Positions 56,473 through 63,003 of a stretch of DNA of 64,000 bases are shown in pieces. Both the position numbers and the translations under genes were made by a program. Source of the stretch: Pannonibacter indicus (GTDB taxonomy: Bacteria; Pseudomonadota; Alphaproteobacteria; Rhizobiales; Stappiaceae). How positions within the stretch are numbered: the first letter of the stretch is position 1; each line of letters begins with the position of its first letter. The stretch lies in assembly GCF_001418225.1 (NCBI RefSeq), contig NZ_LIPT01000004.1:186001-250000 (forward strand), given 5' to 3'. The notes below the pieces were generated by a model. It made no database searches and was not told the origin of the DNA. It worked only from the letters and a program-made list of their open reading frames with translations.

Positions 56473-58635
56473 TTACTTGGCCGTGGCGCTTGCGCCCAGC
56501 AGGTCCGGAAGGGTCTGCGGAGCGGTGGCGCCTGCGCCAAGAAGCTGGGTGACCGGGACCGGTGCCTTTGGGGCCATTTCGATCACGAGATTTTTCGGAT
56601 CGGCTGCGAAGGTGCGGGCTGCCTCCAGCAGTTCCTCGCCGAAGCGGGTGCCGGTGAGCGGGCCCATGTCCTGTGCCATCATGTCGATCAGACCTGCGGC
56701 GAGCTCTTCCTGCGTGAGGCCCGCCTCGTCCGCCTGAACGCCGATGAAGGCCGACAGGACAGCCAGATTTTCAGCTTCGATACGGCCAGACTTGATGCTT
56801 GCGGTTGCCAGGGCCAGCTGCGCCATGGCGGGGTTCTCGAAGACGGACTTCGGGATACCGCCGATGGTGAAGGTCATGTGGATCCTGCCGCCATCCTTCA
56901 TCCCAAGGCTCAGGTCCTTGAGCGTCAGGTCACCTGTTGCCTCATCCCAGTTCATTTCGAAGTTCTGGTCGATGACCACTTCGGTGATGTTGAGGCGCGC
57001 GGCAAGTTCCTGGAACTGCGGGTCGGGCACAATCGCCGCCGGGAAGCGCAGACCCTTGATCACGAGGCCAGCCTCGGTCGGGATGCGGTTGATGTGGCCC
57101 TTCTCGGTCTGGCGGTAGGTGTCCAGAGCGATCTCCTGATCGCCGATGGCGGACGCCTTGACCGAGACGCCCAGAACTTCGGCCAGACCGATGATCGGGC
57201 GGGCATCGAGAATGTCCTGCACGGAGGGCTCCATGCCGCTCATGCTGGCAATGGAGATCCGCACCAGGGAGTCCATCAGCGGGAAGTCGATCTCGCCCAC
57301 CGCGATGCGGCCAAGATTGATCTCGACCTTTTCCTGCGGCTTCGTCACATCGGCCTTGAGGCCGTCGAAGGCAACAATGCCGAGGCCGTTGCTGCTGATG
57401 TCCTTCATCTCGAACTTGCCGAGACCGCCACTCACGTCCGGAGCGGTGAAGCTGACACCATTGACGGCCATGCCGTCGGCCTTGAAGAACTGCAGCGAGG
57501 CGAGGGCTGCCTTGCCGGCCTCGTCGCTGTCAACGGCATCTTCATCCAGCACCAGCTGGTCAAGATAAGGCCAAAGGGGCAGGGTTTCCGCCTTGGTGAT
57601 GCTTATGGGATCAGCGGTGAGGCTGTCGATCTTGACGTCGACGCTGGCGACGCTGACGGTCATTTCTTCAACGGTCTGGCTGCCCATGATGGTCAAGCGG
57701 CTCGGGTCGGAGCCCTGGCCGATCAGGGTCAGCAGCGGCATGAAGTCGATGTCCTTCACCACCTGCTTGCCGATCGTCATGGTCATCTGGGCCATCTGGC
57801 CGCCGGGTTCCAGGGGCATGAAGTCCTGGGTCTGGACCGTCTTGCCGACCGAATACTCGTCGATCCGGAAATCCTTGTACCCGGTCATCGCATAGTCTTC
57901 GTAGACGGTCTTCTGGTTCATGCCGTCCGGGCCGGTCATCTCCAGTGTCATCGTCTCGATGTGATAGCGGTCACCCTTGCCGTCCAGCAGCGTGCGGGCA
58001 ATGTCGAAGTAACGGGTCACCGGGCGCTGCGGATCTTCCGGCACATCGGGGATGCGGCTCCAGGCCATGCCTTCGGCCACATAGCCGGTCTGGCTGAGGA
58101 TGATCCTCACCGGTTCGGCAGGCTTTGCCTCCGGTGCGGCGGCTTCGGAAGCCTCGGAGCTTTCGCCAGCTTCGCCTTCGGCCGGTGCATCTGCGGTCTC
58201 GTCTTCGGGGCCGGGGATTTCCAGCTTGGTCTGGCCGGTGCTGGCCGTGTCAAAATACTTTCCGGGGATCTCGACGTCTGCACGGGCCGTTCCCGGCACG
58301 GAAATCCTGGCGGCCTCGTAGCCCTTGTCCGTCTCGGTCAGGCCCTCGAAGGAAACGGCATCAATCCCTAACTTCACGTCCACCTTGTCCTCGCCGCCGG
58401 GCAGCGGAATGGCGAACTCGATCTTGACGCCATGGATGGTGACATCGTTGCCGGTTGCACCGTCTTCGGCGCGTTCATAGCTGGCAACGGAAGCACCCAT
58501 GCTGGTGAAATCCGCCATCCAGCGGTCCACCAGCACGCTGGCCTGGCTGGCGAAAGCGTGCGAGGGCAGCGACATGACCAGCACCATCGTGGCGGTGCGG
58601 GCGCTGAAGCGGGTGAAGATTGGGGTCGGCAACAA
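56473..58635 (-). CDS. Large secreted protein of unknown function, paralogue A
   Basis: This 720-residue protein has a signal peptide (TMVLVMSLPSHAFA, cut near residue 30) and long beta-rich sequence with repeated patterns of the type G-hydrophobic-x-hydrophobic (for example FEMKDISSNGLGIVAFDGLKA). A low-complexity acidic Glu/Ala linker at about residues 148-175 (EAGESSEASEAAAPEAKPAE) separates it. The C-terminal block PVTQLLGAGATAPQTLPDLLG recurs in the next gene. I do not recognise a named family; an envelope role is inferred from export only. Confidence 0.8.
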   Translation of the reverse strand: MLPTPIFTRFSARTATMVLVMSLPSHAFASQASVLVDRWMADFTSMGASVASYERAEDGATGNDVTIHGVKIEFAIPLPGGEDKVDVKLGIDAVSFEGLTETDKGYEAARISVPGTARADVEIPGKYFDTASTGQTKLEIPGPEDETADAPAEGEAGESSEASEAAAPEAKPAEPVRIILSQTGYVAEGMAWSRIPDVPEDPQRPVTRYFDIARTLLDGKGDRYHIETMTLEMTGPDGMNQKTVYEDYAMTGYKDFRIDEYSVGKTVQTQDFMPLEPGGQMAQMTMTIGKQVVKDIDFMPLLTLIGQGSDPSRLTIMGSQTVEEMTVSVASVDVKIDSLTADPISITKAETLPLWPYLDQLVLDEDAVDSDEAGKAALASLQFFKADGMAVNGVSFTAPDVSGGLGKFEMKDISSNGLGIVAFDGLKADVTKPQEKVEINLGRIAVGEIDFPLMDSLVRISIASMSGMEPSVQDILDARPIIGLAEVLGVSVKASAIGDQEIALDTYRQTEKGHINRIPTEAGLVIKGLRFPAAIVPDPQFQELAARLNITEVVIDQNFEMNWDEATGDLTLKDLSLGMKDGGRIHMTFTIGGIPKSVFENPAMAQLALATASIKSGRIEAENLAVLSAFIGVQADEAGLTQEELAAGLIDMMAQDMGPLTGTRFGEELLEAARTFAADPKNLVIEMAPKAPVPVTQLLGAGATAPQTLPDLLGASATAK

Positions 58636-58663
58636 GGCTTGGCCTCCTTTTGTAAAAATGAAA

Positions 58664-58693
58664 AGCGCGGCAGTTCAGTCAAACCGCCGCGCT
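58664..58693 (-). terminator. Terminator between the two secreted paralogues
   Basis: AGCGCGGC and GCCGCGCT form an 8-base stem with a 14-base loop. On the minus strand it runs into TTTTCATTTTTAC, so it ends the transcript of paralogue B. Paralogue A therefore probably has its own promoter or gets only read-through. Confidence 0.7.
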
Positions 58694-58773
58694 GGCTGGT
58701 TCTGAAATCAGGCGTCCGGTCTGTGCTTCCGTTGATGGGGGCCATCGCCGGATGCGGGACCGTCAAACGGCGC

Positions 58774-59934
58774 TCATTTCTTGTTGGCCGTTACGTCGAT
58801 CCCGAGGATCTGCGGCAGGCCCTGCGGTGCCATGATGGCCGTGCCGAAGATCTGCGCGATGGAGACAGGTGCAGACGGCTTGGCATCAGCCTGCAGCGAC
58901 ACCGGGTTGTCCAGGAACTCGGCAGCAGCGGTTGCCACTTTGGCCTGGAACTCCGGGTTCTGGAGCAGGGCAAGCATCATCGGCAGGCCGGTCTTGAGCT
59001 GGCTTACGACTGCTGCGCGGTCCGAACCGGCGGTTTTGGCCTGCTGGTCCAGCAGACGGTCGACGATGGAGCCGTTGTCGAAGCGCAGGCGCATGGAGTT
59101 GACCGTCAGCCCCTGGAGAATGGCCATGGCTTCTTCGCTGTTGTCCTTGGCGGCAGACAGCTTTTCGGCCACTTCCTTGGTGAAACCGCCGATCTGGACA
59201 GCGAGGGAAACACCGCCCATGTCGGCGGCTGTGATGTCCAGCTTCTGCAGGTCCAGAACCCCGGTCACCGGGTCCCACTTGAAGTCGGTCGAAAGATCAG
59301 CGGTGACGGTCTCGTAACCCAGATCGGTCAGCTGCTTTGCCGAGGAGGCATCCATTTCCGATACGGCCATGGTCAGACCGGAAAGGGTCAGTTCGCCCGA
59401 GGTCGGCAGGTTGTCTTCGCGGCTGTTGATGGCGGCATAGGCCGATTCCAGGCGCGCCTTGGTGCTGTCGCCTTCCGTAATCTCGATGCCTTCGGCCTCG
59501 ATGCTCTTGTAATCGGCCACATCCTCGAAGGACTTGGAGCCGTCAGCCGGGGGCAGGACCACCTCGCTGGCGACGAAAGAGGCCACCGAAACGGCCGTGC
59601 CCGTCTTGTCTTCCAGATAGGCTTCCTCGAAGGCGAGCCCGTCCAGGGTCATGGTGCCGTCAGCCTGCACCACACCGTTGGTCAGCGTGATAATGCCGAT
59701 GGAGCCCGAGCCGTCATCCTGAGTCTTGCCTTCAAGGGCGACGTCTTCAATGGTGACCTCGCTGCCATCCTCGGATACGCCGCCGACCGACAGAACCTTC
59801 ACGTCCCCGGCTTCAAGACGGCTCAGGAAGGCGTCGGCAATGTCATTGCCGGTCGCTTCGAAGGCCAGTGCGCCATGGGCCAGCACCAGGGTCATGACAG
59901 AAGCGCTGACACCGCGCATCAGAAAGGATCGCAT
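58774..59934 (-). CDS. Secreted protein of unknown function, paralogue B
   Basis: This 386-residue protein has a signal peptide (MRSFLMRGVSASVMTLVLAH, cut near ALAF). Its body uses the same beta-rich units as paralogue A (VLDLQKLDITAADMGG resembles DLTLKDLSLGMKDGG). The C-terminus PVSIAQIFGTAIMAPQGLPQILG aligns with the end of A. It is about half the length and lacks the acidic linker. Tandem duplication with divergence is the simplest history. Confidence 0.8.
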   Translation of the reverse strand: MRSFLMRGVSASVMTLVLAHGALAFEATGNDIADAFLSRLEAGDVKVLSVGGVSEDGSEVTIEDVALEGKTQDDGSGSIGIITLTNGVVQADGTMTLDGLAFEEAYLEDKTGTAVSVASFVASEVVLPPADGSKSFEDVADYKSIEAEGIEITEGDSTKARLESAYAAINSREDNLPTSGELTLSGLTMAVSEMDASSAKQLTDLGYETVTADLSTDFKWDPVTGVLDLQKLDITAADMGGVSLAVQIGGFTKEVAEKLSAAKDNSEEAMAILQGLTVNSMRLRFDNGSIVDRLLDQQAKTAGSDRAAVVSQLKTGLPMMLALLQNPEFQAKVATAAAEFLDNPVSLQADAKPSAPVSIAQIFGTAIMAPQGLPQILGIDVTANKK

Positions 59935-60227: not shown

Positions 60228-60412
60228 GCACAGACGAGGTCTGCTGCGGCAAAAATCAGGGAACGGGGTGAAGGGCTTGCACATGAGGCAAGACCTGATT
60301 CCCCGGCTGCCCCCGCAACTGTAAACGGCGAGCGACGCCCCGATGCCACTGGCCCCAAAAGGCTGGGAAGGCAGGCGAAGCGGTGAGCCGTGAGCCAGGA
60401 TACCTGTCCATC
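60228..60412 (+). ncRNA. Cobalamin (adenosylcobalamin) riboswitch
   Basis: The region carries the conserved B12-element pieces in order: an early stem region with GGGAACGGGGTGAAGGGC-like sequence, then CCCCCGCAACTGTAA, GCCACTGG near 60345, GGGAAGGC at 60365-60372 and the B12 box GAGCCAGGATACCTG near 60392. It ends about 62 bases before the start of the CbiM-like gene. High cobalamin should turn that gene down, probably by hiding its ribosome-binding site. The 293 bases before it (59935-60227) hold no gene that I can see. Confidence 0.92.
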
Positions 60413-60473
60413 ACATCACCGGGCGCAAAGCCCCACCCAGTCCCATGCGCGGCGGGCGCAGAAAGGAACGAGC

Positions 60474-61154
60474 ATGCATATAGAAGAAGGCGTCGTTGAA
60501 GGCGCGAAGATCATCCTGAGCTATGGCACGGCGGCAGCGGCTTTCGGGCTGGCGGCAAAACTCGCCGTTGACGACCTGCGGACCAATGGCGGCGCCATTC
60601 CGCTTCTCCTGCGCAGCATCATGACGACTGCGCTGGTGTTCTGCTTCTTCGAGGTGCTGCCGCATCACCCCGTGGGCGTGTCCGAGGTGCATCTGATTCT
60701 CGGCTCGACACTGCTGCTGCTGTTCGGGGCAGGGGCTGCCGCCATCGGCCTTGCGGCGGGGTTGCTGATCCAGGGGCTGTTCTTTGCGCCCTTCGATCTG
60801 CCGCAATACGGCATGAATGTCACCACGCTGCTGGTGCCGCTCTTTGGCATCAGCCTGCTGGCGAAGCGAATCATTGCGCCGTCAACGCCTTATGTGGACC
60901 TGAAATATTCGCAGGCGCTGGCGCTTTCCACCGCCTATCAGGGCGGCATCGTCGCCTGGGTGGCCTTTTGGGCCATCTATGGCCATGGCTTCTCAGCGGA
61001 GAACCTGGCGGATGTGGCCAGCTTCGGTGCGGCCTACATGACCGTGATCATTCTGGAGCCGCTGGTGGATCTTGGCGTGCTGGCCGGTGCAAAAGCCTTG
61101 AAGCAGCTGAGCCGCAGCCCGCTGTTCAACGCAAGGCTTCATGCGGCGGGCTGA
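60474..61154 (+). CDS. CbiM-like cobalt transporter permease (ECF type), B12-riboswitch controlled
   Basis: This 226-residue membrane protein has about six or seven helices. It begins MHIEEGVVEGAK; the MHI start is the metal-coordinating N-terminus of CbiM/NikM proteins, where His2 binds cobalt or nickel. The helices AALGLAAGLLIQGLFFAPFDLPQYGMN-like in the middle fit the family. The riboswitch directly upstream identifies cobalt for cobalamin as the cargo. No cbiN, cbiQ or cbiO follows, so it works alone or with parts encoded elsewhere. The ATG at 60474 follows AAAGGAA. Confidence 0.85.
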   Translation: MHIEEGVVEGAKIILSYGTAAAAFGLAAKLAVDDLRTNGGAIPLLLRSIMTTALVFCFFEVLPHHPVGVSEVHLILGSTLLLLFGAGAAAIGLAAGLLIQGLFFAPFDLPQYGMNVTTLLVPLFGISLLAKRIIAPSTPYVDLKYSQALALSTAYQGGIVAWVAFWAIYGHGFSAENLADVASFGAAYMTVIILEPLVDLGVLAGAKALKQLSRSPLFNARLHAAG

Positions 61155-61210: not shown

Positions 61211-61552
61211 TCAAAAAGGATCGATGCCGATGCGGCCCAGCTTGTCCTGGGTCCAGTCGTCGCCCTTGCAGCCCTTGTAGGCGCCGCCGGAGGCGTAATC
61301 GAGCAGCTCGTCCGGCAGTTCATCGGCTTCGATGCGGCGCGGCAGCACCAGCACGATTTCTCCAGCGGCCTCTTCCAGAACGCGGATCGCAAGGCTGGGC
61401 ACCGGATCCGTGCCGAGCAGATCCACGAGCGCTGCGTGCGGATCGCTCAGAAGCGCAGCGCGGAAGGCCGTGTCAGACTGTGCCTTGGCTCGAAGTTCGG
61501 CTTCCAGCAGCGCGCGGGCTTTCTCGAACGGATAGGCGATGATACCGCTCAT
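61211..61552 (-). CDS. NHLP-type RiPP precursor candidate 4 (last in operon)
   Basis: This 113-residue peptide has a leader of about 90 residues with the nitrile-hydratase-like pattern: AFRAALLSDPHAALVDLLGTD, SLAIRVLEEAAGEIVLVLP and DELPDELLDYASGG. After the Gly-Gly comes a 23-residue tail beginning AYKGCKGDDW and ending GIDPF. The only Cys of the protein is tail residue 5. The tail is Gly/Asp-rich, unlike its sisters. The ATG at 61552 follows GGAGAAG. It starts 14 bases after the stop of its upstream sister. Leader-core architecture is strongly suggested; processing is inferred. Confidence 0.8.
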   Translation of the reverse strand: MSGIIAYPFEKARALLEAELRAKAQSDTAFRAALLSDPHAALVDLLGTDPVPSLAIRVLEEAAGEIVLVLPRRIEADELPDELLDYASGGAYKGCKGDDWTQDKLGRIGIDPF

Positions 61553-61566
61553 TGTCTTCTCCATCC

Positions 61567-61899
61567 TTACCAGAGGCCGCGGCCTTCGATCGGCTTGAAG
61601 AAGCCGATATCCCGCAGGCATTTGTCGAGGCTGCCGCCCGAGGCATAATCGAGCAGTTCATCCGGCAGCTCGTCTTCGGCGATCGAACGCGGCAGCACGA
61701 GAAGCACTTCGCCGGCCTGTTCCTCGACGACGCTGATCTTCATCGACGGGATCGGGTCATTGCCGAACATCTCGCGGATGGCGGCATGCGGGTTGCTCTT
61801 CAGCAGCTCGCGGAAGGCCGTGTCTGAGGTTGCCCTGGCAACGAGCGCGGCTTCAATGTGCGCACGTGCACCGGCAACGGCTTCGGTCATGGACGTCAT
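61567..61899 (-). CDS. NHLP-type RiPP precursor candidate 3
   Basis: This 110-residue peptide has the leader AFRELLKSNPHAAIREMFGND, ISVVEEQAGEVLLVLP, DELPDELLDYASGG, then a 21-residue tail starting SLDKCLRDIG and ending GRGLW. The single Cys is again tail residue 5, and Trp is last. AAAGGAT stands seven bases before the ATG at 61899; an inner ATG lies at 61890. It starts 32 bases after the stop of the upstream sister and 14 bases precede the next. Confidence 0.8.
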   Translation of the reverse strand: MTSMTEAVAGARAHIEAALVARATSDTAFRELLKSNPHAAIREMFGNDPIPSMKISVVEEQAGEVLLVLPRSIAEDELPDELLDYASGGSLDKCLRDIGFFKPIEGRGLW

Positions 61900-61931
61900 C
61901 TGAATATCCTTTCTGATCAAGTGATGAGTGG

Positions 61932-62267
61932 TTACTTCTTCTTGTCGAACCGGCCGAAGAGCCAGTCGTTCTTGAACTGGTTCCAGCATTCCTGCGCATT
62001 GCCGCCTGAGGCATAATCGAGCAGCTCGTCCGGCAGCTCGTCCTGAGCGATCTTGCGGGGCAGAACGAGCGTGATTTCGCCAGGCTGCTCTTCAATCACG
62101 GTGATCTTAAGCGAGGGGAGCGCGTCAACGCCCAGCAGCTTGCGGAGAGCAGCGTGCGGATTGCTTGTCAGCAGAGCGCGGAAGGTTGCGTCAGAGGCCG
62201 CTTTTTCGACGAGCACCGACTCGATGTGGGCGCGTACCGATGCCATGGGAACCGTCTTATACGTCAT
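61932..62267 (-). CDS. NHLP-type RiPP precursor candidate 2
   Basis: This 111-residue peptide has the leader TFRALLTSNPHAALRKLLGVD, ITVIEEQPGEITLVLP, DELPDELLDYASGG, then a 22-residue tail starting NAQECWNQFK, with two Trp and a triple-Lys end. Cys is tail residue 5 and is followed by Trp, as in candidate 1. AAAGGAC precedes the ATG at 62267. It is 26 bases from the upstream sister. Confidence 0.8.
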   Translation of the reverse strand: MTYKTVPMASVRAHIESVLVEKAASDATFRALLTSNPHAALRKLLGVDALPSLKITVIEEQPGEITLVLPRKIAQDELPDELLDYASGGNAQECWNQFKNDWLFGRFDKKK

Positions 62268-62293
62268 GGTGTTGTCCTTTGAAGATTGCTTTC

Positions 62294-62635
62294 TCAGGGC
62301 AGCCAGTCCTGCTTGTAGGCCCACTGGTTGAACTTCCACCAGCATTCCTTGGCATTGCCTCCAGAGGCAAAATCGAGAAGCTCATCCGGCAATTCCTCCG
62401 GCAGATCGGTCTGCGAAATCGCCCGGGGCAGGACGAGGGTGACCTCGCCGGCCTGTTCCTCGATGACGCGGATCTTGAGCGAGGGGATCGGGTCCACGCC
62501 AAGCAGCTGCTTCAGGGCAGCGCGCGGATCGCTCAGCAGCAGGGTGCGGAAGGCGGCATCTTCGCCAGCCTTCGCCAGCAGCGCTTCCTCAACATGCTGG
62601 CGGACGCGAGCCATCGGGTCTGTTGAACTGGTCAT
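62294..62635 (-). CDS. NHLP-type RiPP precursor candidate 1 (first in operon)
   Basis: This 113-residue peptide has the leader AFRTLLLSDPRAALKQLLGVD, IRVIEEQAGEVTLVLP, EELPDELLDFASGG, with Phe in place of Tyr and a four-residue insertion relative to the others. The 20-residue tail starts NAKECWWKFN and holds four Trp, ending in WLP. Cys is tail residue 5. The ribosome-binding site of the ATG at 62635 is weak, so the start is slightly uncertain. It is the promoter-proximal member of the array. Confidence 0.8.
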   Translation of the reverse strand: MTSSTDPMARVRQHVEEALLAKAGEDAAFRTLLLSDPRAALKQLLGVDPIPSLKIRVIEEQAGEVTLVLPRAISQTDLPEELPDELLDFASGGNAKECWWKFNQWAYKQDWLP

Positions 62636-63003
62636 GTGAATGGCCTATTCCGTTTTGCTTGCTGCTTGTGGCGGCCAGTGCCGCCGCAAAATCCAAGCAT
62701 TGATCTTTGAAATATCGTATTTCTCTGCCGTTTATCTGCGGGAATCGCAGGGAAACCGGGAGATGAAAAACAACTCTGGAAAATCGAGCGGCGCATTACT
62801 CGGTTCACGTCCGCTTTCTGATGTTTCTTTTCTATTGCATGGCTGGCAGCTTCTGCTGATTGGACCTGAAAAATTCCAAATCACGCTCAAGCGGGCGTTG
62901 GGGCAGCTCTGCCGCAATCATGGCCTCGACAAGTGCCGCCGGATTGGAGGACGATTGCAGCGCCCGCGAGGCCGCGCAAAGGATCAGGAGCCGCCGAACC
63001 ATC
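62636..63003. other. Divergent AT-richer control region between the peptide array and the amidase gene
   Basis: This stretch of 368 bases is clearly lower in GC than its surroundings from about 62690 to 62880. It should contain the promoters of both the peptide operon and the amidase. Besides the palindrome at 62709-62723 I see no gene; the one open frame across it runs on only as a shadow of the amidase. Confidence 0.6.
62709..62723. promoter_or_regulatory. GAAATA-TCG-TATTTC palindrome upstream of the peptide array, candidate operator
   Basis: Perfect 6-base arms around three bases, 74 bases before the first precursor start. It is the clearest symmetric site in the AT-rich part of this region. 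Which regulator binds it, if any, is unknown. Confidence 0.4.

Follow-up and report, generated by a model that had tools for sequence, protein, structure and literature searches.

Four tandem genes of Pannonibacter indicus appear, with a probability that we put at roughly 0.65, to form a satellite of a selidamide-like, multi-product RiPP system, the other half of which would lie on contig C20 of the same genome. The genes are located in the window analyzed here, a 64-kb stretch (C4:186001-250000) of the 4.17 Mb genome, and, judging by their sequence, they form an operon-like array that encodes RiPP precursors of the NHLP (proteusin) type. We favor the satellite reading because of the NHLP leaders, the NHLM exporter hub on C20, its tandem GNATs, the synteny in congeners, the co-occurrence of enzymes and precursors, a shared promoter-like element and the lack of a LanC match, and also because of the precedent of NpuN and the reported GNATs near precursors that lack a lanthionine synthetase (PMC13060382). 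Leader family, hub genes, congener synteny, shared element, co-occurrence and the presence of one Cys per core are all read in the DNA itself.

The precursor array

The array and the hairpin that follows it comprise these features:

62294..62635, minus strand: precursor gene 1, 113 aa; leader 1-93; core NAKECWWKFNQWAYKQDWLP at 62356-62297; TIGR03793 53.3 bits
61932..62267, minus strand: precursor gene 2, 111 aa; leader 1-89; core NAQECWNQFKNDWLFGRFDKKK at 62000-61935; TIGR03793 54.5 bits
61567..61899, minus strand: precursor gene 3, 110 aa; leader 1-89; core SLDKCLRDIGFFKPIEGRGLW at 61632-61570; TIGR03793 49.5 bits
61211..61552, minus strand: precursor gene 4, 113 aa; leader 1-90; core AYKGCKGDDWTQDKLGRIGIDPF at 61282-61214; TIGR03793 46.9 bits
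61172..61194, minus strand: hairpin GAGGCCGGG-AGUUC-CCCGGCCUC after the last array gene; fold z-score -3.7

In agreement with the sequence-only reading, the array consists of four adjacent minus-strand ORFs of 110-113 aa (62635-61211), separated by gaps of 14-32 bp, with leaders of about 89-93 residues that end in GG after residues 93, 89, 89 and 90. The common leader end that it had described takes the form (E/D)ELPDELLD(Y/F)ASGG, and the different C-termini of 20-23 residues are likewise confirmed, the cores differing strongly among the four genes. Pairwise identity between the window leaders is 63-69%, the leader of precursor 1 carrying a 4-residue insertion, and leaders of the precursor family are nearly Cys-free. 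A search against the NHLP leader model TIGR03793, put forward by the same reading as a check, matched all four proteins (E 2e-12 to 8e-15), two of them (53.3 and 54.5 bits) above the curated cut-off of 50.9 bits and two (49.5 and 46.9) just below it. An AF2 model of the precursor reached a pLDDT of 61.5, too low to use.

The array had also been credited with its own hairpin terminator. The strong hairpin at 61194-61172 (z -3.7) stands, but the terminator scan did not pick it up because its T-run (TCTTTCTC) is too poor; it is probably the transcription end of the array. No recognisable maturase was found in the 64-kb window. A CbiM-like neighbor (60390-61154) was considered as an array partner and rejected: it has no counterpart in three other Pannonibacter genomes (G001, G003 and G004), and its adjacency is therefore probably incidental. 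Two neighboring minus-strand genes of the window (56473-59934) encode secreted-looking, mutually similar proteins of about 386 and 720 aa, the former without a Pfam match.

The exporter hub and its tandem GNATs

Ten clear NHLP precursors are encoded in the genome. Four of them lie in the window, two on C19, with cores TKFSTFLEYGKDGRPIGGSMCK and TSFSSFILYGPPYPDGGGCKKK, one on C20, with core SEGNPCPDPRGGQRGTIVKIRPASSN, and three on C17. Of the six outside the window, only the one on C20 adjoins the sole NHLM exporter of the genome. This hub comprises genes for an outer-membrane efflux protein, the NHLM HlyD protein (TIGR03794), a C39 peptidase-ABC protein (TIGR03796) and a second ABC protein, TIGR03794 and TIGR03796 scoring over their cut-offs and TIGR03797 (second ABC) two bits under. 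The C39 peptidase-ABC protein is the only match in the genome above the TIGR03796 cut-off and, by analogy with its family, its peptidase should cut after GG. A histidine kinase and a response regulator of the OmpR type are also encoded at the hub, as is a cyclic-nucleotide-binding protein (TIGR03896-like, partial).

Two genes transcribed away from the C20 precursor encode tandem GNATs of about 320-340 aa, here termed GNAT1 and GNAT2, as judged from sequence and from the modeled fold of GNAT1. Pfam matches GNAT1 to the GNAT family, the R-x-x-G-x-A loop is present, and the AF2 model of this protein (pLDDT 89.7) finds its best PDB matches in 2wpw, a tandem GNAT from clavulanic acid biosynthesis, in VipF and in a histidine acetyltransferase with N-myristoyl-histidine. 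GNAT2 shares about 32% identity with GNAT1; its P-loop is degenerate in P. indicus, which counts against our preferred reading, and intact in G001, where the protein has a Pfam match.

Several observations concern the surroundings of the hub and of other precursors. A conserved protein of about 340-390 aa with no Pfam or NCBIfam match, possibly a regulator, is encoded between hub precursor and exporter (L018:10361-11500, L055:11622-12797, L070:6483-7493), and a CobW-family GTPase gene and a small function-unassigned gene adjoin the kinase/regulator pair at Pannonibacter GNAT loci (L018:2652-4172, L051:18007-19451, L052:1934-3372, L053:1577-3030). The three tandem NHLP precursors of C17 (L019:9338-10807) differ in their leader end and carry cores of 42-56 aa that contain no Cys; no obvious maturase lies nearby. 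C14 (L021:5481-7849) carries a SagD-like YcaO gene and two small genes, one of them weakly NHLP (26 bits), and is possibly a separate azole-peptide locus. In another genus of the order, a distant tandem-GNAT relative adjoins a Nif11-type precursor (L105:9289-10851; TIGR03798, E 2.5e-14).

Regarding the class of the putative products, LanC (PF05147) has no match anywhere in the genome, so that a lanthionine synthetase acting in trans was rejected, as was a classing of the array as lanthipeptide precursors. The YcaO linked to precursors that would mark thiazole/oxazole peptides is also missing, the YcaO gene on C14 being unlinked. A putative GNAT maturase encoded with the precursor, as expected of selidamides, is present at the hub and beside the arrays of relatives.

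A promoter-like element shared by array and hub

Upstream of the array lie two further features:

62862..62880, minus strand: promoter-like element TTTGGAATTTTTCAGGTCC; the genome has just two copies; 0.02 expected in the window
62829..62836, minus strand: weak -10-like sequence AATAGAAA, about 30 bp downstream of the promoter-like element

A genome scan allowing up to three mismatches located only two copies of the TTTGGAACTTTTCAGGTCC element, one upstream of the window array and the other between GNAT1 and the precursor at C20, while the reversed pattern gave none in the same scan. Where the element lies upstream of arrays, a CTATA-like box comes about 30 bp after it; most relatives present a CTATA(G) box at the -10-like position, and its spacing to the element is conserved. 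The C19 precursor pair lacks the element, which counts against the satellite reading. The GNAT1 and amidase ORFs begin with DLKSSK-like extensions, which we discarded as protein, since they are an other-strand reading of the element.

Synteny and co-occurrence in relatives

The GNAT pair is not adjacent to the window array itself; the GNATs lie beside a family precursor at the hub and beside the arrays of relatives. In particular, G001, G003 and G004 harbor 8, 7 and 8 precursors directly beside both GNAT genes, with cores near-identical to window core 1 and others related to core 4 in all three and, in G001 and G003, also relatives of core 2. Rhizobium sp. RU36D and the MAG of an uncultured Rhizobium show the same arrangement. 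The tail family is common to other Pannonibacter and two Rhizobium genomes, in which it adjoins two GNAT genes. In a fourth congener, G002, the window array occupies the same genomic setting, and the GNAT/exporter hub lies elsewhere. GNAT and precursor profiles match the identical six of the 398 genomes of the order, but these belong to two genera, so independent co-occurrence events are few, and the small number of lineages (two genera plus two Rhizobium records) is held against the preferred reading. It is on congener synteny, the shared element and this co-occurrence that we tie the window array to the C20 hub.

Chemosensory genes (MCP, CheA-like and CheW-like) are found beside GNAT-linked arrays in Pannonibacter (L051:37-8710), where the group also includes a response regulator fused to adenylate cyclase, and in RU36D (L071:10-7697); these neighbors may hint at a signaling role.

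Core peptides

Exactly one Cys is present in each of the four window cores and in all 43 different tabulated cores from two-GNAT genomes, which fall into about eight groups and carry it at various positions. The table left out a remnant-like, leader-truncated ORF of RU36D (L071:16248-16823), the core of which also has one Cys. When the residues of eight representative cores were shuffled, the one-Cys rule arose by chance in 233 of 100,000 shuffles. In a third genus, where each locus carries one GNAT of this type, the cores lack Cys, follow the pattern (T/V)SFS(S/A)F...KPA(K/R) and are encoded downstream of a C39 ABC protein.

Core 1 recurs in four other Pannonibacter genomes, with 90-100% identity across the five species, and is more conserved than its own leader, the corresponding leaders being only 65-71% alike outside the close pair with G002; at the DNA level it presents 0-2 synonymous differences between species versus 5-6 expected. 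Core 2 has relatives in G001, G002, G003 and RU36D, core 3 an orthologue in G002, and core 4 (CKGD cores) relatives in G001-G004 and the Rhizobium MAG. In leader trees, the same core sits in some cases on different leader groups, one of three tests being significant: the AU test rejected a single clade of leaders in the case of the ISFSSFLP pair (p 0.02) and did not reject it for core 1 (p 0.13) or for the VSFG pair. The groups were named only after a tree had been seen, and core/leader recombination is hence suggestive. Together, the conservation of core 1 and its leader-tree placement suggest strong selection on the core, perhaps accompanied by movement of core cassettes.

Proposed pathway and alternatives

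Under the satellite reading, the histidine kinase and OmpR-type response regulator of the hub would activate array and hub alike by way of the shared element. The leaders would then be recognized in trans by the two tandem GNATs, as their families and the characterized selidamides suggest, and these enzymes would acylate a core residue, as family and context indicate. The C39 peptidase of the NHLM exporter would cut after GG, and the exporter would release several different peptides of 20-23 aa, each bearing one thiol, as predicted from its family. The multi-product RiPP locus postulated earlier gains support from the leader matches and the C39 exporter, with the window holding the substrate half only. 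That the window genes encode exported RiPP precursors cut at GG is very probable from their sequence and that of the exporter; acylation of the cores by the GNATs is probable by analogy with the selidamides, and the Cys is unlikely to be itself the acylated residue. Lys can be ruled out as a universal acyl site because three cores of the wider family lack it, a fact that also weighs against the preferred reading.

The weak similarity of the window precursors to PF02979/TIGR01323 might be taken to mean that they descend from nitrile hydratase alpha and persist in the cell as stable proteins instead of being precursors. This seems highly improbable, for the similarity stops at GG and gives way to variable cores, there is a dedicated NHLM exporter with a C39 peptidase, array and hub have a promoter-like element in common, and one core is more conserved than its leader. 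A modification of the Cys in trans by another enzyme, such as an azoline formed by the YcaO of C14 or the action of the MNIO of C7, is very unlikely: the genome does encode both enzymes, but neither is linked to the arrays, Rhizobium sp. RU36D has no YcaO match despite its same arrays, and the MNIO gene shares an operon with a small secreted precursor of its own that contains Cys.

There remains a small chance that the peptides leave the cell unacylated, the C39 exporter removing the leader, the Cys forming disulfide dimers or a free thiol and the GNATs serving self-protection or another substrate. The single Cys of the 43 cores fits dimerization, some GNATs are self-resistance enzymes (PMC13060382) and the acyl site is not deducible from the cores. 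Against this, GNAT genes accompany the precursors across lineages, dividing in step with them, and the single-GNAT genus has Cys-free cores.

Relation to known systems

Arrays of NHLP precursors with NHLM exporters were described by Haft et al. 2010 (PMC2887384) and discussed with LanM or cyclodehydratase. The Pannonibacter system shares with them the long nitrile-hydratase-like leader ending in GG, the variable cores, the several precursors per genome and the C39 exporter; it differs in having two tandem GNATs as its linked candidate enzymes and in that the window array lies away from exporter and enzymes. The selidamides (phaeornamide, kamptornamide and the nostolysamides) carry a fatty acyl on the side chain of Lys or (hydroxy)ornithine (PMC9505594, PMC13060382) and have in common with it an NHLP-type precursor, a tandem-fold GNAT and a C39 exporter with predicted GG cleavage. 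Characterized selidamides, however, involve a lanthionine synthetase and one GNAT, phaeornamide also an arginase and a hydroxylase, whereas the present system lacks a LanC match and has two GNATs, 7-10 precursors per genome and one Cys per core, with acylation itself inferred; the likeness of GNAT1 to the selidamide GNATs NpuN and PhaN rests on the tandem fold.

NpuN, a tandem GNAT, acylates Lys of an NHLP/Nif11-type precursor, and a similarity network places NpuN-related GNATs next to NHLP or Nif11 precursors without a lanthionine synthetase (PMC13060382). These loci, uncharacterized in that study and here compared by description only, resemble the Pannonibacter family in leader type, GNAT and ABC transporter, and the Nif11-GNAT pair recurs at L105. 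Precursor family, exporter and GNAT type are thus already known, and GNAT-linked NHLP loci devoid of lanthionine synthetase are already listed (PMC13060382). In the literature searched, which covered few subscription journals, we found no description of the split architecture with its shared element, of the GNAT pair or of the one-Cys rule, and nothing relevant on Pannonibacter RiPPs. That this is a new, lanthionine-free RiPP class, with dispersed arrays under one element, maturation by a GNAT pair in trans, a modified or essential invariant Cys and core cassettes shuffled between leaders, we also regard as unlikely.

Precursors encoded far from their maturases are easily missed in cluster-based genome mining, and an element of the TTTGGAACTTTTCAGGTCC type, shared by a lone array and its hub, offers a cheap route to finding such satellites. 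The system would provide a test of whether a family of ribosomal lipopeptides with several products in each strain can be defined by tandem GNATs without lanthionine synthetase, and of what the single invariant Cys is for in such very different cores.
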